64,000 nt of DNA from assembly GCA_030295235.1 (NCBI GenBank), contig AP026145.1:870501-934500 (forward strand). Direction: 5' to 3'. This DNA comes from Fistulifera solaris (Eukaryota > Bacillariophyta > Bacillariophyceae > Naviculales > Stauroneidaceae). Numbering within the stretch: the stretch's first letter is position 1; the number at the start of each line of letters is the position of its first letter. This document shows positions 4,490 through 43,131 of the stretch, in pieces. The translations under genes were made by a program, and so were the position numbers. The notes below the pieces were generated by a model, which was given only the letters and a program-made list of their open reading frames with translations, ran no database searches and was not told where the DNA came from.

Positions 4490-4908
4490 GCTTTTTGTGG
4501 GGTCGACCTTTGTTTCGTGTGTTTGTTGGACGGAATGAATGTGCAATGCTCGAAACAACTTGAAACGAATGAATGATTTATCGTGTTTCCGTGTGAAACG
4601 CCTTTGACGTTTCGCCTTCGGAAAGTACACCAAAAGGTTATAGTCATTTCCCCAACGCTTTCGTATCTTATGTCTTTCGTATGAAAATGTTCGACGGTTT
4701 CAACGAAATAAATCGAACACGCAATGGGAGTGTTAACTTTGGGGCCGTTTCGTCGCAGAAAGCACGAGCCGTGACACTGATAGTAAATTGTACTCATGTT
4801 TACGACACTCAAAACAGTAAACTTATTTACTATCCACTCGCTAAGCAAGGTTTTAGCTATGATGTCTTGCCGTCGCTCCTCTCCTCTCTTGTTGTGTGGT
4901 GCAATTGT

Positions 4909-5361
4909 CATGAATCTAAACGGTAAACCCTGGGTTGGGCATATGGCCGAAATGTCGCATCAGACATCCACGCGCCTCCTACTGTGTCTTAGTGTACTGC
5001 GCTGCTGGCACAAAAATTCACCGCGTAACATCACGGCAAAATGTTGATTTTAGCGTTCTTATAAATAAATATATACATGGTCCGAATGGATGCAAACACC
5101 TCGATATTATTTCATATATTTTATTGAATCGATTCAAAGTGTTTGCATCCATTCGGACCATGATTTCACATTTTTATTGACACGCTAAGATCTGAATTTT
5201 ACCGCGATGTTACGCGGTGAAAAATTTCATGAAAAAAGCAATGACAGACCGTGTACATAATGAGCTTATATGAAACTGAGACGCGTTAATCCGTGTTCGT
5301 ACTATTTTTGTATCGCGACGGACGTGTACGAAGAACCCAGGGTTTACCGTTTAGATTCATG
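4909..5361. mobile_element. Foldback/MITE-like non-autonomous DNA transposon
   Basis: A 453-bp element is bounded by perfect 28-bp terminal inverted repeats: 4909-4936 (starts CATGAATCTAAACGGTAAAC) and 5334-5361. A 7-bp direct repeat CAATTGT lies immediately outside each end (4902-4908 and 5362-5368), as expected of a target-site duplication. Inside are further inverted repeats: a perfect 24-bp pair at 5076-5099 and 5139-5162, and an imperfect pair around 5012-5042 and 5201-5231. The middle would therefore fold into a long hairpin with a loop near 5100-5138. No transposase is encoded. The superfamily is not clear from a 7-bp duplication alone. Confidence 0.85.
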
Positions 5362-5521
5362 CAATTGTTCGCGCCGACGACTTTTTGCAAAAGAGATCGA
5401 CGACGATGACGCGAAACGAAACGAGGGGAAGCAATAAAAACAACTCACCTTTCAATTCAAACTTATCCTTTCCGTTCTATTCTACTCAATCGCCTCCTAT
5501 CACACTTCTTTCTAAACTACA

Positions 5522-6333
5522 ATGCCCAAGAAAAATGCCCCCGAGGTCTCCAAAAGGCCTTGCAAAAGCAAAAACAAAAAGCGATTGAAGACAAAACGTT
5601 CGGGCTGAAAAACAAAAGCAAATCAAAAAAAGTACAACAACAAGTCGAAAGCATTCAAAAGAATATTATGAATTCCGGAGACCCTAAATTACGCAAACTC
5701 GAAGAACAGCGCAAAAAGCACAAGGAAGAAATGAAAGCGCGCAAAAAAGCCGCAAAGGAAGAGCAGGAAGCTCTCTTTGGCGCCGCTCTCTTGGCCGTCC
5801 AAAAGAACAAACCGACGGGCGCCAAAATTGAAGCCAAAGGCCGTGATCACAACGATGACAATGCCCCGAAAAATTCGACGAGTCGCGCGATGAAATTAAT
5901 GTACCAGATGGATGCCCAAGAGATGGCGGACAAACTGAAACAGGACAATCCGGATTATGTCCCCACATTAGAAGATGAAATTGAACAGCAACGACAAGAA
6001 AAAGTGAAACAATTGCAAGGCAAGGGGACACCGGTGACTCCGGAAACCTTTGCGGCGTGGAAAGAACGGAAACGAAAGCAAAAAGCGGAAACCGTGCAAA
6101 AGACCGTCGAACAAGAGTTCAAAAAGAAAAAGGGTGGGAAAGGCTTATCGATCTTGTCGGGACGTGACTTGTACGAGTACAAGAAAGAACTCTTTGTGGA
6201 TCGTGAGGATGATGATATTGTGAGCAGCAACAATGGTGTATCCGAAGATAAAGTGGAACAGCTGGCGGAGCATGTCAATCAAGAGTTGTTTTTACAAGAC
6301 GATGATGATTTGGACGATTTAGAAGATGATTAG
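5522..6333 (+). CDS. DFRP1/Tma46-like (ZC3H15-type) protein lacking CCCH fingers; frameshift near start
   Basis: ZC3H15/Tma46 proteins bind and stabilise DRG GTPases and associate with ribosomes. Family hallmarks seen are IEDKTFGLKNKSKSKK near the N-terminus, a long charged coil, TPVTPETFAAWKERKRKQK, ILSGRDLYEY, and an acidic end (LDDLEDD). The two CCCH zinc fingers normally found between coil and C-terminal domain are absent; only a helical segment is there. The ATG at 5522 gives MPKKNAPEVSK and then falls out of frame. One extra A in the run at 5552-5555 (or less likely 5531-5535) would join it to the long frame ending at 6333, for about 270 residues. The gene is followed 100 bp on by a convergent gene. 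Confidence 0.8.
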
Positions 6334-6433
6334 AGAGAAAATAAAAGCGGCTACCTTCTATCATTCAGTTATCTTTGTCGTACAGAATAGTTTATCGTTG
6401 CTTCATTAGATATTGCAAACTAATCAATCGTCC

Positions 6434-7012
6434 TCATTGAGTTTTTTCTCCCTTTTCTAAACCAGGATGGATCCGATCCCACGCCGATGGATAATTCGAT
6501 GATTCATCACTTCGATCCAACTTCCGAAATTGCCGTTGCAAGGCATCCAATTTTTCTGGATCAAAGTCTCCCTGAATCGCCCGTTCCCGCAATTCTTTCT
6601 CGACCGCCACCATTTGTTCGTGCAATTCTTGTCGGGTCCACGGTGCTTCGGGTTTTCGGACGGTATAATCATAAAACGAAAAGCGAGAACGAAATTCGGG
6701 ATCCTGTGCCATTTTCTTGCCAATCAGCGGCGTACAAGCAAACGCCACGAGAAAGAACGCCACAATTCCCAATTGCATCGTTCCCGTCGAATCGGCCGCC
6801 GCCGGGCCGTGATGTGCATTTTTGTTCGGCAATTTTCCCTGTCGGGCCAATTCTCGCGTGTGATGATATTGTTCCATGGTCGCATTCGCTTGACGCAAAT
6901 ACGCTTGGACTTGTTCGGGTGTCGCATTGTCGGGTAATTTGGTCGGCCGGCTGGTAAGGCGGCGGATGCCGGCCATTCGATTTGTATGAATGAATGTAAC
7001 TCTCGAGAACAT
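6434..7012 (-). CDS. Small single-pass, probably mitochondrial membrane protein
   Basis: 192 residues from the ATG at 7012. A second ATG at 6976 (MAGIRRLTSRPTKLP) is possible. The N-terminus is rich in basic and hydroxylated residues without acids for about 25 residues, which fits a mitochondrial presequence. One hydrophobic segment (MQLGIVAFFLVAFACTPLIG, near residues 82-101) is followed by a soluble charged helical region (ELHEQMVAVEKELRERAIQG) and a short motif YPSAWDRIHPG. The layout recalls small accessory subunits of inner-membrane complexes, but no family is recognised. It is divergent from histone H4, with 389 bp between starts. Confidence 0.7.
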   Translation of the reverse strand: MFSRVTFIHTNRMAGIRRLTSRPTKLPDNATPEQVQAYLRQANATMEQYHHTRELARQGKLPNKNAHHGPAAADSTGTMQLGIVAFFLVAFACTPLIGKKMAQDPEFRSRFSFYDYTVRKPEAPWTRQELHEQMVAVEKELRERAIQGDFDPEKLDALQRQFRKLDRSDESSNYPSAWDRIHPGLEKGEKTQ

Positions 7013-26110: not shown

Positions 26111-29100
26111 TCAAAAGGCCACGTAATCCTTTTCTCCCACATTGGCATCTTCGACCAACAAACTTAAAATGCCCGTTTCCCGCAATCCTTGATGATCGGG
26201 TTGTTGGAAGACGGGAATGATGGCTGGACTTGTGGAACGTGGACTCTTTCGGATGACATGCGACAACCAATGCTCCAACAGTTCGTGACGACGACGGGCA
26301 CACCGTTCTTTCGTGTCCTCGGGAACAAGGCGACCCAAGTATAGAAAAATTCGCAAACCATCGTCAATCAAATAAATGCCATCGTCTTGAAAGGATTCCA
26401 TCGTAGGACGCACCAGCGGTGGCATATCTTGGTTGTTGTCTGGCGAATTCAAATCGATGGAATAGATATTCGGATACAAGAGTGACATACAAGTACAAGG
26501 GTTGCTTTGGAGGAGCTGGAAATTGAAATAGCCTCGTTCGTCCCCCGATGGTTGGATACGAGTACCCCCGGTGGCCGGATCGCGGCAGGGAAACCCCGGG
26601 GCCAGCAGCGGCAATTTGATGAGACACATGCAAAAAAGCGGGAGAAGTTGTAAGCTTGATGGAAGCAATAATTGGCCGGTGGGGCTGGATATCGCCGGAG
26701 TGTTCAGTCGGTAATTGACCAGCATGTTCAAGCAAGTGGCGTACAATGCATCGCGCGCTTTTTGGCGGGGTATCAGTTTGTCGTCCTTCTTTTGTTCGTT
26801 GATGGTTTTGATTAAATGCGCGTGCGTCGTGCGCACGAGATAGGGAAGAATGGCGGCAAAATCGGCGCCTTGGAATACATCGTTGGCCGATTTCGCGATA
26901 GGAATGGCCAAAGTGGATACGCGAACCAATCGTCGACCCGACAAAGAGGTATACAATAATGCTGTTTGAAAGTATACCGTCGAACTAGATTTCGGAAGCC
27001 CGCCAACGCGGTGATCCAGTTCCACCGATATGCATGTATTGGGAGACAATGAAGCCAATTCGAGTTCCGGTGAATCACCAAGGGCGCCTTCTCGCGACTT
27101 GCCTGGAGCGTAAACGAAATTCTTAATTTGTACACCAGCCGAACAACGAACTTTGAAGACTGCATCCCAACCAGAGAATGCCCGAATGTTGCTTCGTAAA
27201 TCGTTGTAAAGCGATTCTTCCCATTGCATTGCCTGTACCCAGTAAAGGCGTCCACTCGTAACTCGACACAGTTCACCCATTGAAGCAAGTCCTAAAAAGC
27301 TATTAACGCTCACCGACCCTGTATGCATGACAATATCCAAGGTCACTCGATTTGTGACGCATTCTTCGGCCAGTTTGGAATAAAACAATGCGGCAGTTTC
27401 ATCTTCATTTCCTTCTGGCTTCTTTTGACTTTGCACTGGTACATAGGTCAACGTGTTCTCGGCTCTAGATCGTCCCAATAGCAACGCCTGACTTTCTTCC
27501 CTATACGCCAAGCTACCCACTCCGAAATTCGGTCTTCGCCAAGTCAAAAGCGTTCCTCGTCCTCCGGATGAGGCCAAGGCGTTGGAAAGAAACGCCAGGG
27601 CAGCTCCGCCACAGCTTAACTCTGATCCATCTAATCCATACGCATTTCGTGCAAACGATTCCTTTCGCCATTGTTTCAAATTCAGATTGTCTAGGAGCTG
27701 GCACCATGCGTCAGCAGACTCGTTCATCACAAACGTCCAGTCCTCCAATGGTGCGGGTGTAAAGGGTCTTCTGTTACGTCCGCAACCACCATACATGATA
27801 TTTCACCACTGGAAGCATTCCACCGAGGGATCATAATGCCCATGGAAGAGACGAGACATAAACCAATGCGCGGCGCCGCCCCGGAAGCTTGCTGCTGATA
27901 ATGATCCGTCATATCTTGTCCTAATTGCTGCAACATGGATTTGTATGCTTCCACGTGAGGAGATGTCAAATCCAAGACGTACAATTGCACCGGCTGTACG
28001 GGAGTAGGACGTGTGATGTAAGGACCGGTCACTTCCCATTCCACCGTGGCTTCCGGACGTGCCGTGACGAGAGCCTGCGTTTGGCCCACACCGCAAAAGA
28101 TGCATTTGTGATCTGTCGCAAATGGATTCGCGTAGGCCAAACAGTTCGTACATCGAGGAGGTGCATTGGTAATCGGGAGCATGGGTACCGACGCGTTCGT
28201 CTCTTCAATTTCTTCCGGCAAAGACGCTACAAAGTCTTGTGACGGCACTGCCAATGGCACGCACTGCAAAGCCAACGGTATATCGCCCGTACTATGCCAT
28301 TGCGCACGACTGGCGGGAAATTGATACACGGTACTGCGCAATACGTGCGGCGCCGCATTCCCATCGTCCATGAGGGTCGCTGATAATTGCAACGGTGGGG
28401 GCTGTCCCATTTGCGCCCGCGGATAGTATGGCGATGATGATGGAGTTGACAGGGGACGTGGAATCAAAGACACGTCAATGCTGTCGTTGTAGGGTATCGG
28501 TGGTGGGGGCGGACCTCGAGCATGAGACGGAGGATATGCGTGACTCTGCGAGGAAGGATACATATTCGGGGTGGACGTAGAAGGTGGGTACATTTGACTT
28601 GGAGGTGCTGGAGGAGGCACGTAAGAGGGAGGATGCATTGGCATTTGACTGTGTGAGGACTGCGGATACATGTTTCCTTGCGGCGGGGGAGCCATGCGAC
28701 TCTGTGGAGGAGGCGGATGTTGATGAAACGATTGTGAAACAGGAGGATTGCTCTGGGCGTTAAAAGGAGGAGGAGGAGGCACGTGACTCGGTAGAGGACG
28801 TGGTTGCATCTGACTGGGTTGAGAAACAGGAGGATTGCCCTGGGCACCAAAAGGAGAAGGAGAAGGCAAATGATTCTGTGAAGGAGGCGGTTGCATCTGG
28901 TTCGGTTGCAAGACAGGAGGAGGCACAGGCATCGGACTCGGTTGCGAAACTGGAGGAGGCGCATAACTCTGTTGTAAAGAATCTGTAGGCCCCGGAGTTG
29001 GTTGACCAGAAGGGCCGTGCACACTTAAAGGAGGCACATGACTTTGTGAGGGAACCATCGGACTCGATTGCGAAAGCGACATAGAATGGTGAGCTACAGG

Positions 29101-29517
29101 GGGTATCTGGCTCTGGGAAGGAGGAAGATTCGGCAGATTGTGCGATGGTGGCGAAAATGACACCGGGGCATGCTGCGGCCTCGTGGATGTTTCGGTAGAC
29201 TCAAGCGACGGCGGAGCTGAAAATGTCGTCGGCGGTCTCACTGGAGGAGGCGGCATTATTTTGTGTGCTCCGGTGCTACCTCCTGACATGGGAGGAGGCG
29301 GAGGAAGAAACCGAGCATTTTGTGCTATAGAAGCAACTCCGTTGACAGGTTGCGTCAGTTGTGAAGTCATCGGCTGCTGCTGCTGCTGCAGCTGCGGTTG
29401 CGGAGGAGGAGGAGCCGTAAATCGAGGAGCGCTGGGAACTGTAGATTGCGGATACTGTTGCGCTTTGTGCCCGTTATTTCCGGGCGGTGGAGGCGGAGGA
29501 AGCGGAAATGAAGGCAT
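26111..29517 (-). CDS. Sec24-like COPII coat protein, one-base break
   Basis: About 1135 residues after one base is added to the run at 27761-27763 (TTT on the coding strand), which rebuilds VTEDPFTPAPLEDWTF. Sec24 selects cargo in the COPII coat at ER exit sites with Sec23. In order there are: a 300-residue disordered Pro/Gln/Ser/Met-rich N-terminus; a zinc finger (PRCTNCLAYANPFA...HKCIFCG); the trunk domain (VQLYVLDLTSP, the vWA-like fold); a beta barrel and helical domain; and a gelsolin domain near the C-terminus (DDGIYLIDDGLRIFLYLGR). Domain order and length match Sec24 and not Sec23, which lacks the long proline-rich leader. Start at the ATG opening MPSFPLPPPPPPGNN. Confidence 0.92.
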
Positions 29518-30054
29518 TTTATTTTCTCTTTTCTTCTATTCGTACACAGTAATAATCCGTTAGTTCGCGGATCGTTTACAATCGAGTATTTCTTGTTTGT
29601 CAAATGAGCTTAAAAATAATGGGTATCAGATAACGCTTTTCCTTTAGTTATCGGCTTGTTGAGGAGCGTTATATTTTGGACGACACCATGGTCGACGCAA
29701 AGTCGAAATGCGCGCATGCCGCGGATCATTGCGTCGCCAGAAATTGCTGTCGCACTAAACGTGACACAAGAAAAAACAAGACCCCTTTCTGCTTACGTCA
29801 GAAGGTGTACTTCACGAGGCTATACAATGTATTCAGTCCCAGGTCGCTACGGTTTTCTACATCGATCGTCGCATGCGAAAAAATTGTTTTCGGTGTTTCC
29901 TCTTGCGATGGATTTATCGGTACCGTACCTTATTGGTACCTTACGCTCGTTGATCGACATTTCTATACATACTCGCTATTCATTTCACTCCATTACGGCA
30001 GTTCGCAAACTGGAGTTTCGCTCTGAATCTCACACTCCGTCATTGTTTCTCGCC
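29518..30054. promoter_or_regulatory. Divergent region between Sec24 and the GIY-YIG cluster
   Basis: 537 bp. An open frame continuous with the first GIY-YIG gene starts at 29656, but its extra 133 residues have no counterpart in the two paralogues, so it is read as untranslated sequence. Confidence 0.35.
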
Positions 30055-31480
30055 ATGATACTATCTAATCAATTCATTTACGTATTAGCGCTACAGAATA
30101 GTAAATATTATGTTGGCTGCACGAATGATGTGGCACGCCGATTCCAAGAACACCAAAACGGTCAAGGATCCGCGTGGACCCGATTGTATCCTCCTTTACA
30201 AATCCAGCAACAATATGCTGTTCCACCCGACAAACATCCTGGACTGGAAGAAGATGCACAAGTGAAGTCGATGATGTTGCAGCATGGTATCGATCATGTC
30301 CGTGGAGGATCGTATTCGAATGTCCATTTAACGTCGACGCAGACGGCCATGTTGGAAAAGACGATTCGCCACGCCGAGTCGGTATGCTTTCGATGCGGGC
30401 AACAAAATCATTTTGCCAATCAATGTGACTCACAAACGATGGTGGGTTCACTTTCAACAACAAAGACTTTTCATGTTCATGGCGCCTCCCATAATCGACT
30501 GGTCCAAGATCAAACGTTGAGGCACTGTGAGCGCTGTGGTCGCAACAATCACACCGCTGATCGTTGTTTCGCCACATTTGATGTTAGAGGCGTTCGAATA
30601 GCTACCCAACACCATAGAGCAGTTTCTGAGCCACAGGAGCAAATGGTGTGTGAACGCTGTGGCCGAAACACTCACACAGTGGATCAGTGTTTCGCCCTTT
30701 CGGATATTCACGGTGTATTGTTGAGGGACGAGCAGCGTGGATCGACGAGTGTCAAGCCCTCTAATGAAGATTTGTCGAAATGTTCGTGCGAACGCTGCGG
30801 GAGAAATACTCACGACACGAATGATTGCAAAGCCATTTTGGATCTCAATGGATCACTTCTCGTGTCCGATACGTTGCGATCTGTGAAAGTGAATAGCGGG
30901 GATCCGAGGAGACGACCAACGTGTGAACGTTGTGGCAGAAACACCCATGCCGCCAAGCAGTGTCATTCAGTTTTTGATATCAATGGCATTTTGATTGATG
31001 ATCCTAGCTCGAGAACTGCCGTAACATCTCTGGAGAATAGTTACGAGCCGATGACGACCACATTCCCCATCGAAACAGACGATGATGCAAGTAGATACAT
31101 CCCCGTTCAACTTTGTTACAAGTTGTTGACAACCGGCAAATGTTTTTGTCAACTGGGCTGCGGATTCAACTCTCTAAAAAGCTTGACTACCAGCAGCGAG
31201 AGCCGAACGAGTTGAGGTACGCTGTATTGGGTTGTGAAAAACACCCCAGAGTTACCGTGGACACAACAAACACTCGTCGAGACATGACACAACCGGCGAG
31301 CCATCTTTTGAAATAGAATCACCGCTGATTGTTATTACAAATGGCCTTCACCGTCCGGCGCGGACGCTGATCTATCCTTCGTTGCCATTCAATCAATATC
31401 ATACCATCGCTCCAGAGATTAAAGCAGCCTTTGACGAAGATGCGCATGTCAATAATCCGTTAGCCGAGATCGATGTATAA
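30055..31480 (+). CDS. GIY-YIG nuclease-domain protein with five zinc knuckles (copy 1), two breaks
   Basis: The ATG at 30055 (MILSNQFIYVLALQNSKYYVG) matches the starts of copies 2 and 3. Residues 1 to about 90 form a GIY-YIG domain: IYVL, YYVGCTNDVARRF with the catalytic-type arginine, GSAWTRLYPP, and the acidic EEDAQVK, followed by GIDHVRGGSYSN. Five CCHC knuckles (C-x2-C-x4-H-x4-C) follow, the last four nearly identical (CERCGRNTHxxxxC). Then comes a Cys-rich segment (LCYKLLTTGKCFCQLGCGF) that looks like a decayed CCCH finger. The frame is lost at the A run 31176-31180 and again at 31237-31241; each needs one more A. The coding frame then continues (LIVITNGLHRPARTLIYPS) to TAA at 31478-31480, about 475 residues. 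Without repair it stops at 31215. The protein probably binds and perhaps cuts nucleic acid. Confidence 0.8.
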
Positions 31481-32076
31481 TCATTAATAGAGGAGCTTCC
31501 TTATTGCGTTGCAGTGTGTTCGGCAGTAGATGTTAATCGACCGTCAAGATACTATAGTGACGATTGATTGTCTCGTCGTAAACTAGCAACGCACGAACTT
31601 GATAAAGACCTTTTCCGCAAGTCTTTCCCCTTCTTTCTTGTCAAAAGGTCGATTTACTTGACTCTCTTTTGACTCGTTTATTGCTCTTTCATTTTCACTT
31701 CATCGTTCATCGTATCCTTTGGCCGTTAACCATCGATCGAAGCTGTATACCTCTGTCGCACCGGTGTCTCGTAACTTCCAAATCCGATTACTTGTAGCGA
31801 ACATTATGGCAACGATCAATGCCTCTATGTCCAACTCTAGAGAGTAGCTAGAAAGACAGAAAGACCCTTCGACAGTACATGGGATATAAGTTATCACTCT
31901 TATGATGGTTATGGCGCTTTCTCGCTTCATCGCCTTGACCCTTGCTTCACCAGTGAAAGCGAGAAAAGAAACTGTTTTACGCGATACTCCGTAATCAGTT
32001 TTCACACTTTCAACCGTTTCTCATTCACTTCCGTCAGGAATCATCGGAATCCATTCAGTTTAGGCAGACCGTGTTA
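31481..32076. other. Intergenic spacer inside the GIY-YIG cluster
   Basis: 596 bp with no supported gene; it should contain the 3' end of copy 1 and the promoter of copy 2. Confidence 0.4.
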
Positions 32077-34092
32077 ATGGCACCTGACAACAATCCGTTC
32101 ATTTATGTTTTGTTACTCCAACAAGGAAACTATTACGTGGGAAGCTCGAAGAATGTTGAGCGCCGCTTCCGAGATCATCAAAATGGACAGGGATCGGCAT
32201 GGACCCGCTTGTATCCCCCTCTTTCCATAGAATATTCCTACGCAGCCGGACGACACCCCGGTCTGGAAGAAGATATGCAAGTCAAGTTGTTAATGTTGGA
32301 ACATGGAATCGATCGCGTCCGGGGTGGTTCCTATTCCAACATTCAACTGACTGCTCAACAAAGAGAAGAACTACAGCGTGCGCTTCGGCATGCCAGGGGA
32401 GCTTGTTTGCGGTGTGGTCGTACAGGTCACTATGCGCATCAATGCAACGCCGCGAGGGAAAGTGATTCACTCAGCAGAAGAAATACTCGCCGTCAAGAAA
32501 GTGTAGCCGCAAACAGGGATAACCATGCTTATTCCATCTCCTACGAGCATTGGACGGGCATTACTGGCGTAGTAGGATTTAACGGAGGGCGTACATCATC
32601 GGACCGATCCTCCGTTTTTGTGGCTTTAAAATGGGCATTGCCTCGTTGGTTAGCGGGAGGAGAGGAGGGAGACCCAAGCACTGCCATTTCTGCAGTGAAT
32701 CGAGCCACAGACCATCTCAATGTGAATTTGTCCTGCAGACGTTGTGGCAGAGACAACCATACAACAGACAGGTGTCATGCCGCAAGTGCCATCGATGGAT
32801 CTAGCTTGCAGCCCGAACAAATATCACCAACAGCTTCATCGAGGGCGTGTCCCACAGGGGAGGAACCGATCGCAAGATATGTCCCACGCGCCAGCGATGT
32901 GCACTCCTATGATGGCGAATGTCAGGAAATTCAAATAATTGATGCGGAACCTTCACTTACTAATGTAGCACAAACAACAAGACGTTACGTCGAATCCGTC
33001 ATACGAAACCAAAATTTGAGCGTTCAAAGCTGTCGTGACTTTTTAAACCAGGGCCAGTGTCCCCGTGGGCCGAGTTGCACTTTTTCCCATGCCGTACAAT
33101 TGCTCGGAAGCGTCAAAGTCACAAAGAAAGCACCGGTTTCTTCCATTGCCGTATGGCCGGGTCAAGAAAGAAAACTATTCACCGGAACCGCCGATGGGTG
33201 TTGGCGTCTCTGGAAGACGAACAGTAACGGAAACTTTCAACAGATATTCGAAGGAAACATGTCCGGAGAGATCCTTTGCCTGGCGGTGAACAAGCAGTGC
33301 TTTGCTTGTGGCTTTCAACGGCAACTATCTTCGTCCATATCGAAAGGAATGATTCACATCTGGAATTTAGAATCGACCGGCGATCCGCCTTTGGAGTTGC
33401 ATATGATTCCCCGAAAGTCCCCATTTGCTCACGAAAGCTGTGTAAGCTGCATGTTTGTTGATACAACAATGGAAATAGCTTCCGGTTCAGACGATGGGAA
33501 AATCCACATGTGGGCTTTTGACTCCTCCGTTCGATCGTATAGACTTGGTCAACAAATTCAAGCTGGAGCCAAAGTTACTGCCCTGGTTCTAATGATGCAA
33601 CAAGACTTACTTTGGAGTGGTTGTGATGATGGTTCGATTCAAGTATGGAAGGTTCGCTCGGGTCAATGTCAATATCGTATTCCTGCCGGAATCACAGGAC
33701 ACTCTAGTGCCATAACGTCGCTTCAGCTCATTCGAGCCCCAAAAGGTTTGTTCATTGGTAGTGCCTCACTCGATGGCACAATCAAAGCATGGGATTGCCT
33801 CACCGGCGTTGGAGTCATCGCCAAAAACATATCGACTCCCATTCACTGCATGACGATCGGCGAAAGTAGCGAGGGATATCCACTTGTGTTACTAGGAATG
33901 AGCGACGGTTCCATTCAATGCCGCAATCTGTTATCCACATCGAACTTGTCAGCACTGGATCTCGTCTTTACTGTACCCACACAAGGGGCGGCGGTCCATG
34001 CAATCGCAAGCGGGTCGAGAGGCTCCTTTTTCAGTGGCGATGCAAACGGCATAGTGCATGCGTGGCAGATAAAAGAATTGCATCTTTCTTGA
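32077..34092 (+). CDS. GIY-YIG / zinc-knuckle / CCCH / WD40 fusion protein (copy 2)
   Basis: 671 residues in one uninterrupted exon from ATG 32077 (MAPDNNPFIYVLLLQQGNYY). Residues 1-90 are the GIY-YIG domain (YYVGSSKNVERRF, GSAWTRLYPP, LEEDMQVK, VRGGSYSN). CCHC knuckles occur at 110-123 (CLRCGRTGHYAHQC) and about 222 (CRRCGRDNHTTDRC). A CCCH finger lies near 319-338 (C-x8-C-x5-C-x3-H, within CRDFLNQGQCPRGPSCTFSH). From about 345 to the end are roughly seven WD40 repeats, recognisable by endings such as GTADGCWRLWK, GSDDGKIHMWAFD, GCDDGSIQVWKV and GSASLDGTIKAWD. CCCH plus WD40 is the layout of plant ZFWD proteins; an N-terminal nuclease-like domain is extra. The frame is intact although neighbouring genes are broken. 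An RNA- or DNA-processing role is inferred only. Confidence 0.88.
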   Translation: MAPDNNPFIYVLLLQQGNYYVGSSKNVERRFRDHQNGQGSAWTRLYPPLSIEYSYAAGRHPGLEEDMQVKLLMLEHGIDRVRGGSYSNIQLTAQQREELQRALRHARGACLRCGRTGHYAHQCNAARESDSLSRRNTRRQESVAANRDNHAYSISYEHWTGITGVVGFNGGRTSSDRSSVFVALKWALPRWLAGGEEGDPSTAISAVNRATDHLNVNLSCRRCGRDNHTTDRCHAASAIDGSSLQPEQISPTASSRACPTGEEPIARYVPRASDVHSYDGECQEIQIIDAEPSLTNVAQTTRRYVESVIRNQNLSVQSCRDFLNQGQCPRGPSCTFSHAVQLLGSVKVTKKAPVSSIAVWPGQERKLFTGTADGCWRLWKTNSNGNFQQIFEGNMSGEILCLAVNKQCFACGFQRQLSSSISKGMIHIWNLESTGDPPLELHMIPRKSPFAHESCVSCMFVDTTMEIASGSDDGKIHMWAFDSSVRSYRLGQQIQAGAKVTALVLMMQQDLLWSGCDDGSIQVWKVRSGQCQYRIPAGITGHSSAITSLQLIRAPKGLFIGSASLDGTIKAWDCLTGVGVIAKNISTPIHCMTIGESSEGYPLVLLGMSDGSIQCRNLLSTSNLSALDLVFTVPTQGAAVHAIASGSRGSFFSGDANGIVHAWQIKELHLS

Positions 34093-34105
34093 GCGATTGA
34101 ACGGG

Positions 34106-34149
34106 AGTCATTTCGCCAGTGAATGCTTTGCAAAAACGGAGATAATTGG
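34106..34149 (+). pseudogene. Fragment of a GIY-YIG-family zinc-knuckle region
   Basis: 44 bp that match 34836-34879 inside copy 3 at about 40 of 44 positions, including GTGAATGCTTTGCAAAAACG without a change. It lies 14 bp after the stop of copy 2, so the 3' flank of copy 2 carries a remnant of a copy-3-like knuckle. This points to past unequal exchange or a decayed fourth copy. Confidence 0.6.
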
Positions 34150-34214
34150 CACTTAACACGCCGTAGGGTCACTTCTCCTGCGCCACGAAGTTATTCTTGA
34201 ACCTCGATTCAAGT

Positions 34215-34343
34215 TTATGAAAAGAATATAGTACGCGTCGACCAAGGGACTTCGCAATAGTTCCCCCAGCCCAGCAGGGAGGTCCACAACAGCAACGTCA
34301 TGCTTAACCCCGTGTAGATCAAAGCCCGATGATGCGTCGGCAT
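34215..34343 (-). CDS. Possible 42-residue membrane peptide
   Basis: A short frame from ATG 34343 to TAA 34215 encodes MPTHHRALIYTGLSMTLLLW followed by TSLLGWGNYCEVPW and a basic end. It has one clear membrane segment, unlike most chance frames nearby. It lies antisense between two sense-strand genes. There is no homology evidence; it could equally be chance. Confidence 0.2.
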   Translation of the reverse strand: MPTHHRALIYTGLSMTLLLWTSLLGWGNYCEVPWSTRTIFFS

Positions 34344-34496
34344 AATGACCGTATCAGTTAAGTGATCCTTTTTCGTGAAGCGGAGCATAATGTCGACGGA
34401 GAAGAATTGTTGTCTTGTTGATTCTCCATATTCATCTCATCTCATTAATTTCATGTTCCCAACAAAGCAACTTAATTTTTCGACGAAGAAAGGGCG

Positions 34497-35291
34497 ATGG
34501 AATACATTTATGTGCGGGCCTTGCAAGACGACAAGTACTATGTTGGTTGTTCGAGCGATGTGATTCGTCGATACAAGCAACACCAAAAAGGCCAAGGCTC
34601 CTCTTGGACACAACTTTATCCTCCCGTCGATCTTCAGAGCCTACACGAAGTTGCACCAGGAAGACTTCCAGGATTCGAAGAAGATGCGCAAGTCAAGTCC
34701 TTGATGCTGATATATGGGATTGATCGCGTGCGTGGAGGCTCCTACTCGAATGTGGAGCTGACGGAAGCACAACTGGCCGAACTGAAACAAGCATTGCGAC
34801 ATGCCAAGTCAGCTTGTTACCGTTGCGGCCGAACGAGTCATTTTGCGAGTGAATGCTTTGCAAAAACGGAGATCGTTGGTTCCTCCAGCTCTACAGAATC
34901 CTAGGAGCAAGTTCCACTCGCCACGACCAGTCGCTACAATCTTCGACCAAGGATGCCGGCTTGCAAACGTTGCGGCCGAAACAGTCATACCGCAGAAAGT
35001 TGTTACGCCAGCTATAAGGTTAACGGTGTACGCGTTGCGGTAGAAATGGCCCCGGCTGCCAAACTCGTCGCCGAGGAACGAAACCGCCATTCTCCCAAAG
35101 AGATATGCGAGCGTTGTTGTCGCAACACGCACACGATCGAGTTGTGCTACGCTTCTCGTCATTTAAATGGTTCCATACTCCCCAAGGCACTGGCTAGAGC
35201 CTTCCAAAGTAGACAAGACCCGAGGAAGTTTGGTGATTTCGACATCAACGAATTGTTTAGCCAGATGAAAGTGAAATATTCGGAGAAATGA
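34497..35291 (+). CDS. GIY-YIG zinc-knuckle protein (copy 3), interrupted by in-frame TAG
   Basis: ATG 34497 opens MEYIYVRALQDDKYYVGCSS, then RRYKQHQKGQGSSWTQLYPP, EEDAQVKSLM and VRGGSYSN: the same GIY-YIG domain as its two neighbours. A CCHC knuckle (CYRCGRTSHFASEC) follows. An in-frame TAG at 34902-34904 ends this frame after 135 residues. Beyond it, in the same frame and with no indel, come two more knuckles (CKRCGRNSHTAESC and CERCCRNTHTIELC, the latter with Cys for Gly) and a C-terminal tail to TGA at 35291. The gene is therefore either truncated to nuclease plus one knuckle, a recent nonsense allele, or a readthrough gene. TAG also ends other genes here (22778-24832 and 5522-6333), so a changed genetic code is unlikely. 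Confidence 0.72.
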
Positions 35292-36054
35292 GTTGCACAG
35301 TTTTGGATTTGACGCCGACGCGCCACTCGAAACCGATTTGCTTTCAAAGTAAGAAAAAAGCCCGACAGTCAATTCATCAAAATGATAAGCCAAAGACAAC
35401 CACAGCCGTCAAATTCCCCTTTTTCTTTGAACTTTGAGGAAAAAGCTCTACAGCGATCTCCTTACTAGACTGTCTATAAAAGCCATTGCATGCGTTTCTC
35501 GAACTGCTCGAGTGTTCCCTTGATGATCACGTAACTTCTCCTCTTCGTGACAAGATGCGTGATAGTGACGAGATGCATGAAAATAAGAGCATTGTCTCGT
35601 CGCCGTCGTCGATCGCGTGTTGTTTCGTTTTTCCGTCTCCGGGTCGCCTGCACTCGAGGAGTCGTCGATCTGTCTGTCCGGTACTAAACTTGTCAGTCTT
35701 GGTTATGGATCTTGGACATTTGAAGTGTAACATAAACTGTAGTTAAAGATATCGCAACAGCCAACAGCATAATCGCAATAGAAACAGGCGTAGCATTTTA
35801 CTACTGAAGTTCATTCACGGTCAGAAACCCTTATGTAGTGAATGTACGGAAGTGTAGAATTTCATTCCATCATTCCGTTCTGCGAGAAACTCGCACCAGC
35901 AAATTTCAAACCGACGACGACGTTGGTTGCGTGTCGTGCATAAAACGCAACAGAAGGCTCCCGGATATTTCTTTCACATTTCCGGGAAGCCGTTCATGTA
36001 TCCTTGCTTTGATTTCCTCCAGACCTCGCACGACGAAGAAGAAGCAACGCAACG
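35292..36054. other. Intergenic, no gene seen
   Basis: 763 bp of mixed composition between the GIY-YIG cluster and the first member of the three-motif family. No repeat or RNA gene recognised. Confidence 0.4.
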
Positions 36055-40730: not shown

Positions 40731-43131
40731 GCTTTGTTGTGGGTGAGAGTTGGATTTTCTATAAATCAGCGGTAAAATAAGCGATTGTTGATTGTAGATT
40801 GTTGTTCGAATGTGTTTTGCTGTTTTGCTTCAATGGTTCGATGATGAATCACAGTTGCCGCGATTTTTCGTCACTTGTCATTTTGTTCATTGTCCGATGT
40901 GACCAAGAGCTATGGAAATCAGAAAATGCAACCTCGCCGCCCACCGCCGCGCGAATTCTACACATAACGCATAAATCACAAAGTAACCAGTAACAATAAC
41001 ATAGTCTAAGTACCAGGTAGTACTGACAAAATGACGGACAAAGGACAAGACCAAATCGCAAATCGCAAATTGCAATACTAAAGTCGAGCTCTGTTTCGGA
41101 GAAAGGTTATCAGGGAACGATGTATACGCTTCAAAGTACCTGATCGACATCCATTCTCTACAACGGCTGATAAGAGAAAGTAGCTTTATTCGTTGAACCA
41201 CGATTCACACGGTCGAGCTGTTTATTCGTATCACCCAGAATGTACAAGACGAAAAACGTACAAATTATGAACAATGAACATCGTACAAAGATGGTTTAGC
41301 TTCTTGCATTCTTTATTCTTCATTGTTTTTCATTCAAGTGCTACTTGTAGCACTTAGCGTCTACGTATCCAAGGACTCACCAATATAGTTCGACAAATAT
41401 CGATATTTGGATTTTTACGAATATCAATATCGTATAATACGATATAATAACCGTTATTAATACTCGCAGCCGTCTGTTTTTGTCCGTAAATTACAGCCAC
41501 TTTGACGTGAAAAGCCTCAAATCCGTCTGTCAGACGTACGAATATCGATAAATATCGATATTGGCTAAAATTGCCCTGATATAATATGCTATTATAACGC
41601 GAATATCGATATTCGTTATTTGTTATTTGAGTGGGTGTCGAACTATACTCACCAATCAATCACTAATCACCGCTTTGAAAAGCTAAGGTCTATCATACCC
41701 GGTATGAGCCGGGGGACGGGTCCTTGCACTAAGAGAAAGGTTTGTGCTTTTAGTGTAGTCAAGCCGGTTCGGAAACTCAGCTCTCTAGAGCATTAGCTGG
41801 TAGGTTTTGCAACACATCTTTCTCAAATTTTACATTTCTCAGGCTTACTAAAGTTCCAGAAAATGTAGGATACGGAGTATGTAACAAGCTGACACGACGC
41901 ACCACGCAGCCGATTTAATTGCGGTGAGAGGAGGTTCATATTATAATAAACAAACACGCCCAGAATTATGTGTTTGACACTAGAAAATTCTCCTTCGCCG
42001 ATTAATTGATGGCAGACACGACGCATGTAAGATTCCTCTAGCCAAGAAAAACGGTAGATGCAGCTGCATAGACTATTTGGAACGCTGAGTAGCTACCATA
42101 GAGCTAGATATGAGACTGATCAAAGGCCGACTGGCTCAGGGCTTCCCTGCTGGCTAGCTCTAGAGAGAAGATCCTTTAGCTGGAATAGTCTAAACTCTAA
42201 ACAGGTGTCACTTGAACCGCACAAAAATACATCATATATTTTTTTTATAAAAAATAAAATTTTCGGCTTAAATCGGATGCACTGCCCATTGCCCAGCATT
42301 TTTTTTATTAAAAATAAAAACTACTCCAGCTGTTCGGGTTGTTGTTAGTCGCTCCATTGTTCCACTTAAATTCCGTATCCGTCCGAGAAGCATAAAGGGC
42401 AATAATAACGCAGTCTCCCTAATATCCTATTCTCAATTCAACGTGTTCCCACTTCCCACTGTTTCGAAAAGTGCCGAAAAACACAAGCCCTTTTTACTTT
42501 TTTACAACTTTTCGGATTCTTCCAAACCAGAAGTCAGAAAATTATAAAAAATCCTTCTCTTTACTATAAGCAAAACAGTAAATAATGCACAGGCGCTGGC
42601 TAAATTCCCCATAAATATTCTATAAGTGTCCGTTTTCCAAGTTCGAACTGTTCATTCCCACAGTTCCTTGCTTTTCTCTTGAGACTTTAATGCGGAACGT
42701 TGCTGTTTCGGAAGTTTAGCTATAGAGATTTATGTACTCTCATTTGATATCGAAAGTACGTGGATGGTTTACGATTAGATCGTTGCCATCACGTCTCAAG
42801 ATGGCCGCCTACGGAAGAACCTTCTAATGAACGCGATTATCGCGGGGCTTAATTAAAATGTATAGTTTGGCGAACGTAGATTTGCGCCATCAAGAAAGCA
42901 TTTCAAAAGCCCTCTCTCTTTTGTATGAAATCCCAATTCCACGAGCGATGGCCTTGGATGGCGAGGAGAGCCGGAAGTGTAAGGATGCATTGCGAATGAA
43001 CTCATAGACGATGATTTTCTTATCAATCATGAGGATGCGAATTCACCTGCAAGGCTCACAACATTACCAACAACGCAACAAAGGTAGAGGACTTCTGGAT
43101 CAATAAATAGGTTTGCGGAGACTCTAGAACA
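40731..43131. other. 2.4-kb AT-rich intergenic region with a MITE
   Basis: No gene is supported. It contains the MITE at 41384-41647, an 11-bp inverted pair CTCTCTAGAGC at 41781-41791 and 42157-42167, and two similar A/T blocks (ATTTTTTTTATAAAAAATAAAA and a near copy) near 42238-42259 and 42299-42320. This is the most repeat-like, gene-poor stretch of the window. Confidence 0.5.
41384..41647. mobile_element. hAT-like MITE with 8-bp target duplication
   Basis: 264 bp bounded by 12-bp inverted repeats TATAGTTCGACA at 41384-41395 and its complement at 41636-41647. A perfect 8-bp direct repeat CTCACCAA flanks it (41376-41383 and 41648-41655), the duplication length typical of hAT elements. The interior is palindromic, with several ATATCGATATT copies (near 41398, 41552 and 41602), and would fold back on itself. 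There is no transposase. The ends differ from those of the 4909-5361 element, so this is a separate family. Confidence 0.8.

Follow-up and report, generated by a model that had tools for sequence, protein, structure and literature searches.

A candidate gene fusion in a tandem array of the diatom Fistulifera solaris joins a GIY-YIG nuclease-like domain and zinc knuckles to a CCCH-WD40 architecture

The combination of a CCCH zinc finger with a following WD40 domain characterizes the ZFWD subfamily, for example Arabidopsis AtC3H59/ZFWD3, which is described as a nuclear protein whose WD40 domain binds Desi1 (PMC8124945). GIY-YIG nuclease domains are described in other settings. In the account given in PMC1564403, the GIY-YIG domain of Slx1 is joined to a zinc-binding RING domain. 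Plant EFFECTOR OF TRANSCRIPTION (ET) proteins are reported to combine a GIY-YIG domain with Cys-rich repeats that bind zinc and DNA and vary in number, and in E. coli the GIY-YIG domain of ET2 was able to take the place of the one in UvrC; the excerpted text of that source mentions neither CCCH nor WD40 (PMC6585611). A GIY-YIG domain with a zinc module of its own is a recurrent arrangement, realized with a RING finger in Slx1 and with ET repeats in plants. ET repeats are not known to be CCHC knuckles.

Each of the modules GIY-YIG, CCHC, CCCH and WD40 is familiar, but to our knowledge they have not been described together in one protein, and a search of full-text, open-licence literature found no paper in which GIY-YIG, WD40 and CCCH occur together. 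Such a chain is encoded in the DNA analysed here, a window of 64,000 nucleotides (C21:870501-934500) from the 51.7-Mb, 61-contig assembly of F. solaris.

The open frame and its modules

A single stop-free frame of 671 codons extends from an ATG at 32077 to a TGA ending at 34092. The frame is open from 31957 onwards (711 residues), with its first Met at 32077. Among 500 sequences, each of 2136 nt and generated by a first-order Markov model, the longest chance open frame was 296 residues (mean 126.5); because these sequences reach 296 residues at most, the 671-residue frame is not a product of chance. The following features were located:

32077..34092, forward strand: fusion ORF, GIY-YIG + CCHC + CCHC + CCCH + WD40, 671 residues
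32077..32352, forward strand: Slx1-like GIY-YIG domain (Pfam match 32095-32226; Y10, Y20, G22, R30, H34 and E65 present)
32404..32445, forward strand: zinc knuckle 1 (CLRCGRTGHYAHQC), in frame (Pfam and pattern)
32734..32775, forward strand: zinc knuckle 2 (CRRCGRDNHTTDRC), in frame (pattern)
33031..33090, forward strand: CCCH finger, C-x8-C-x5-C-x3-H (Pfam; aligned with the ZFWD-like paralogs)
33097..34089, forward strand: WD40 region; runs colinearly with its ZFWD-like counterparts on contigs C4 and C3

An earlier note, made from the letters of this DNA, had described an uninterrupted frame of this length, and that description was borne out, with four module types above their Pfam cut-offs. 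Among the best 25 of the 47 Pfam families considered, matches were obtained for GIY-YIG at residues 7-50 (3.3e-7; PF01541, 30.9 bits against a cut-off of 22.6), for zf-CCHC_5 at residues 108-125 (1e-6) and zf-CCCH at residues 319-338 (2.9e-6), both above the curated cut-off, and for WD40 (2.8e-18), for which three stretches exceeded the curated cut-off, a figure that is not a count of blades. No RING family occurred among these 25, and the region after the GIY-YIG domain is occupied by CCHC. The two in-frame knuckles, starting at 32404 and 32734, match C-x2-C-x4-H-x4-C, and all inter-domain stretches are at most about 90 residues long.

An AlphaFold model of residues 1-132 had a pLDDT of 88, and a Foldseek search with this model returned GIY-YIG domains at ranks 1-5 and 7, with E-values of 0.0065 or worse and TM-scores below 0.5. 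A full-length model made without an alignment (pLDDT 31.5) was unusable, so the propeller is supported by sequence alone.

Relatives of the two halves

The fusion gene is the middle one of three diverged GIY-YIG+CCHC copies in tandem. The two outer copies are:

30055..31215, forward strand: copy 1, GIY-YIG and five CCHC knuckles, 386 residues open, without a WD40 match
34497..35293, forward strand: copy 3, GIY-YIG and three CCHC knuckles, in-frame TAG at 34902-34904, without a WD40 match

The N-terminal half of the fusion was 59-60% identical to copies 1 and 3. Outside the array, no further GIY-YIG+CCHC-type copies were found in the genome by a search whose counts are lower bounds.

Relatives were also sought in public contig collections. 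Scans of virus contigs with narrow alignments of the three copies confirmed 0 of 59 and 0 of 48 pattern stretches. A DNA pattern for W-T...V-R-G-G yielded nine stretches in the virus collection, in five of which the profile detected the domain (L043, L046, L048, L049 and L050); knuckles were present in two of these five, L048 and L049, which were 48-49% and 37% identical, respectively, to the N-terminal half of the fusion. A further scan of the virus collection gave six loci, two of which were the L048 and L049 contigs again; the other four were set aside because the match spans only 29 residues (E 1e-4). In a collection of genome contigs, the same pattern occurred in 44 stretches, 20 of which carried the domain by profile, and among those 20 the sole complete knuckle, as judged from translations, was that of L094, on a contig in a bacterial (Magnetovibrio) bin that encodes the same GIY-YIG+CCHC pair. 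Six other bacterial proteins (L084, L088, L095, L057, L074 and L097) showed, by eye, two tandem GIY-YIG-like domains and were free of knuckles.

The viral status of L048 and L049 rests on their membership in the virus collection. L048 encodes GIY-YIG followed by two CCHC knuckles; other genes of its contig specify PhoH, a pyrimidine-dimer glycosylase and an ATP-dependent DNA ligase. On L049, a tandem pair of GIY-YIG+CCHC-type genes (4878-5435 and 6332-6910) resembles the array in the window, the second of them diverged and without a Pfam match. When the L048 protein was compared with phages by tblastn, 11 of 50,697 records matched, with a best coverage of 53% in which the GIY-YIG part corresponded to phage endonucleases, and no record among the 50,697 covered 80% of the protein. 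L087 was dropped as virus evidence, since the contig at whose edge it lies carries genes that look ordinary for a bacterium.

The fusion has in common with L048, L049 and L094 a GIY-YIG domain with W-T ... V-R-G-G and a CCHC knuckle directly after it; in L048 and L049 a second knuckle follows further on, as in the fusion. The proteins of these three loci are short (185-272 residues), and no CCCH or WD40 match was found in L048 and L049 or in approximately the first 180 of the 272 residues of L094. The earlier note knew of no described protein with all four modules, and the chain as a whole was unmatched in open-licence literature; the GIY-YIG+CCHC pair is not unique to this gene, since it occurs also in L048, L049 and L094. 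No paper describing that pair was found in the open-licence literature. What appears new is the four-module chain; CCCH+WD40 is a known family, and GIY-YIG+CCHC is present in public virus contigs as well.

An alignment and a tree were built from 25 rows, comprising the three copies and 22 of 33 profile-matched ORFs (three L048/L049 repeats, L053-L056, L064, L077, L089 and L091 were left out). Y10 and G22 were invariant in this alignment, and Y20, R30, H34 and E65 were present in at least 90% of rows. We take Y10, Y20, G22 and H34 to be catalytic-type positions of GIY-YIG domains. The conserved Arg and Glu of the domain are named in PMC1564403. In the midpoint-rooted tree, the three copies grouped with L048 and L049 (92/93, unstarred branch), and this group joined L094 and L087 (81/90, unstarred), apart from the other 14 bacterial and three virus-collection rows.

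Searched against structures, the 25-row profile matched 1zg2 (2.8e-12) and 1ywl (5.9e-9), both UPF0213, ahead of I-TevI (1mk0, E 0.069) and an SLX1 homolog (7wme, 0.16), and no UvrC structure appeared up to E 10. PMC1564403 places 1zg2 and 1ywl in the Slx1 family. By this profile, which describes the family of 25 rows and not the fusion alone, the N-terminal half is assigned to the Slx1-like type. It differs from Slx1 and UPF0213 in what follows the nuclease-like domain, namely CCHC, CCCH and WD40 modules instead of a RING finger. With ET proteins, the comparison concerns the way of working, a GIY-YIG domain with its own zinc module, and is not a claim of relationship.

PHROGs returned weak matches only. 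From NCBIfam, the fusion alone gave a weak match to a group I intron endonuclease, at 17.6 bits well below the cut-off of 56.05, which also counts against the Slx1-like assignment. GIY-YIG domains have been called highly mobile (PMC1564403), and Penelope-like elements are reported to carry one (PMC11167929). The mobility of the domain, its presence in Penelope-like elements and the NCBIfam match would agree with a selfish-element protein, that is, a homing or Penelope-like retroelement endonuclease that hitched onto a host gene. However, GIY-YIG+CCHC copies were found only in the array, by counts that are lower bounds, the relatives found by profile are Slx1-like first, with I-TevI only at E 0.069, no inverted repeats of at least 25 nt occur in 29000-36000, and no reverse transcriptase, which Penelope-like proteins carry in the same ORF, is among the seven Pfam families of copy 1. 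A selfish origin is accordingly considered very unlikely.

The C-terminal half has its relatives elsewhere in the same genome. L006 (C4) and L007 (C3), 96% identical to each other, both encode a CCCH finger followed by WD40 repeats, and the C-terminal half of the fusion aligned colinearly with both across 350 residues, as far as the stop, at 46-47% identity. In all three genes the CCCH finger (residues 319-338 in the fusion) lies N-terminal to WD40, the order also seen in ZFWD proteins, and this half is assigned to the ZFWD architecture by its arrangement of domains only. L006 and L007 start with a Gly/Arg-rich stretch; the fusion is without that N-terminus and has GIY-YIG and CCHC modules in its place. 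The proposal that a nuclease-like domain was joined to a CCCH+WD40, ZFWD-like architecture is supported, and genes of the C-terminal type are present elsewhere in the same genome.

It had also been suggested that copy 1 holds a CCCH remnant and that the array ancestor already had the finger. The stretch in question is:

31114..31173, forward strand: CCCH-like stretch in copy 1 (CYKLLTTGKCFCQLGCGFNS), final His missing (weak)

Its cysteine spacing, C-x8-C-x5-C-x3, agrees with the suggestion, but the final His is missing, CCCH was not among the seven Pfam families found in the copy 1 frame at E up to 1, and its alignment score against the fusion (36) was equalled by 30 of 1000 shuffles. The remnant is suggestive only, and a CCCH finger in the array ancestor is possible but weak. 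Searches for WD40 remnants around copies 1 and 3 gave none up to E 10, the sole matches being weak ones (E 0.39 and 2.7) to the N-terminal half; with no WD40 match behind these copies, there is no sign of a propeller in the array ancestor.

An open stretch of 80 residues (31238-31480) follows the stop of copy 1 in another frame, has no match elsewhere in the genome, and is possibly the remainder of a former C-terminal part of copy 1. As a candidate for a lost partner domain it was rejected, a 78-residue query having matched itself only.

Reading phase between the halves

Between the two in-frame knuckles, the linker contains a further match to the knuckle pattern in a different phase:

32682..32723, forward strand: out-of-phase zinc knuckle (CHFCSESSHRPSQC), frame 2 relative to the gene

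This knuckle ends 10 nt ahead of in-frame knuckle 2. The six frames of the 64-kb window contain the pattern at 11 places: copy 1 has five, copy 3 has three, the fusion has two in frame, and the last is the one in the linker. The pattern was absent from 123,124 bases at other loci of the genome, a sample in which some loci overlap. An out-of-frame knuckle anywhere in the gene arose in 32 of 5000 codon-order shuffles and in 32 of 5000 synonymous shuffles. Because an out-of-phase knuckle is rare in shuffles, part of the linker was probably once read in the other phase; the probable cause is either two frame changes of some age near the knuckle or errors in the bases there. The expectation of the earlier note that the fusion is the only long gene of the cluster with no frame lesion did not hold, given this knuckle at 32682 and given that copy 1, with GIY-YIG and five knuckles in 386 residues, is open as well.

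Codon usage in 32576-32733 scored 0.07 in the present frame and -0.25 in the other phase. Frame 0 was best in 35 of 43 codon-usage windows, and six of the eight exceptions begin within 32392-32797; in the calibration of the method, the true frame was best in 259 of 276 windows. Across 32500-32733 taken whole, frame 0 was the best codon frame. The out-of-phase knuckle and the weak codon signal around it show that the stretch between the halves is disturbed. From knuckle to knuckle the fusion measures 330 nt, whereas the spacing in copies 1 and 3 is 141 and 147 nt. The linker was rejected as a dispersed repeat, since it matched itself only.

A disturbed linker could indicate that the halves are separate products of two transcripts, or that an intron lies in the linker (approximately 32.45-32.73 kb): the knuckle spacing exceeds that of the other copies, the extra stretch contains a knuckle in another phase, and most of the windows in which frame 0 is not best surround it. 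Against this reading, Met occurs in the fusion at residues 1, 67 and 73 and then at residue 395, inside the WD40 region, so that CCCH+WD40, as a gene of its own, would have to start at a codon other than ATG or be entered through an intron out of a different frame. A scan for strong sites within 32446-32735 found no GT[AG][AC]G donor followed, at a distance of 42 nt or more, by a [CT]AG acceptor, and with only 10 nt between the out-of-phase and the in-frame knuckle, no intron can put both in one protein. Frame 0 is, moreover, the best codon frame over the linker as a whole. Two transcripts or a spliced gene are considered quite unlikely, and the halves most likely form one coding sequence.

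The array, the two subgenomes and a proposed origin

F. solaris is described as an allopolyploid diatom whose chromosomes form 42 homoeologous pairs, with 9007 pairs of homoeologous genes and 2441 genes that have no partner (PMC5935921). In the assembly, contigs pair up by gene content, with the C21 flanks of the array corresponding to C22, the ZFWD-like genes lying on C3/C4 and UvrC-type genes on C27/C29. This pairing fits an allopolyploid F. solaris, and the label homoeologous for C22 depends on that. On C29 (L002) and C27 (L003), frames resembling the C-terminal part of bacterial UvrB stand directly before UvrC with GIY-YIG, one set per contig. We presume their UvrB/UvrC identity from a reading of the translations and the GIY-YIG match.

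C22 retains both flanks of the array, at 66-85% identity, and is without 5.7-5.9 kb that contain all three GIY-YIG copies. BLAST matches to C22 stop at 29867 and restart at 35766, two points that are only about 195 nt apart on C22 itself, and a gapped alignment extends to about 29911 and about 35656:

29912..35655, no strand: segment missing from homoeologous contig C22 (ends approximate; BLAST and gapped alignment)
34105..34149, forward strand: 45-nt fragment, 91% identical to part 34835-34879 of copy 3, 12 nt past the fusion stop

The 45-nt fragment, which is closer to copy 3 than the array copies are to one another, is a recent local duplication or a trace of recombination. The right flank holds a repeat of about 265 bp (approximately 41382-41660) with the appearance of a short mobile element; of the 50 matches that the right-flank search listed, 42 were dispersed full or partial copies, with up to 97% identity across the full length.

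Absence of the fusion from a close relative together with an assembly join at this place had been named in the earlier note as grounds for abandoning the fusion. The first was observed, in that the array is absent from C22. An assembly join is not indicated: the gap ends well outside the gene, C22 preserves the order of both flanks, and even the nearest relative of the C-terminal half shares no more than 46-47% identity with it. Neither half is nearly identical to a second place in the genome, which shows that the gene was not joined from another assembled locus. Although two base errors could explain the out-of-phase knuckle, an assembly artefact, whether two genes joined or indels added, is regarded as extremely improbable. 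The simplest explanation of the missing segment is that the C22 subgenome lost the array or did not inherit it.

Synonymous divergence (dS) between L006 and L007 was 0.35. Between the C-terminal half and L006/L007, dN was 0.47 and dS 2.1-3.6, the latter near saturation and unreliable, and dN/dS for the fusion contains the paralog's own constraint. The GIY-YIG copies differed from one another by a dN of 0.27-0.32 at saturated dS. Judged by these distances, the array copies would thus have diverged long before the subgenomes split, if the divergence happened in this lineage. That 671 codons stay open at such synonymous distance argues for constraint during most of the history of the gene, and implies a fusion that would have been constrained for most of its past, in a figure that is not specific to the fusion branch or to the present.

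Given the stop in copy 3 and the lack of any array on C22, the array appears dispensable in the C22 subgenome. A relic, in which the fused frame is open by history and yields no functional protein while the array decays by deletion and stops, would also be compatible with the possible CCCH finger of copy 1 that lacks its last His and has no WD40 match behind it, and with the out-of-phase knuckle inside the fusion. Yet 671 codons have stayed open despite synonymous sites at or near saturation relative to the relatives compared, frame 0 has the best codon usage in most windows, and the conserved GIY-YIG positions are retained. Decay of this kind is therefore judged rather unlikely, though it deserves to be taken seriously.

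To the reading that we prefer, a gene fusion within the tandem array between a nuclease-knuckle member and a host ZFWD-like duplicate, with a predicted function as a tethered nuclease, we assign about an even chance of being right. In this proposal, the array would predate the split of the two subgenomes, one of which later lost it or never inherited it, and a ZFWD-like duplicate would have landed in or beside one array member, upon which the two frames merged. By analogy with Slx1, the GIY-YIG domain may act as a structure-selective nicking nuclease. The CCHC knuckles and the CCCH finger may bind nucleic acid in single-stranded form; RNA or an RNA/DNA junction would be the likeliest ligand, a guess from the types of domain. 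By analogy with the binding of ZFWD3 to Desi1, the propeller might dock the protein on the complex used by the ZFWD-like paralog, whereby cutting would be brought to that complex.

A bolder form of the fusion proposal, which we put forward tentatively and hold to be somewhat improbable, adds that a nuclease gene of a type shared with viruses was taken up by a diatom lineage, multiplied its knuckles and gained a host CCCH+WD40 part in one copy. The predicted product would represent a new class of four-module, complex-tethered nuclease directed at RNA or junctions, and the out-of-phase knuckle would possibly be an alternative-frame site.

If the gene is expressed, a nuclease-knuckle gene of a type shared with viruses would have been wired into a host zinc-finger/propeller protein. 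It would then represent a case of the origin of a multi-domain eukaryotic protein, present in one subgenome and absent from the other, for which the allodiploid host offers a natural comparison between the subgenome with the array and the subgenome without it.
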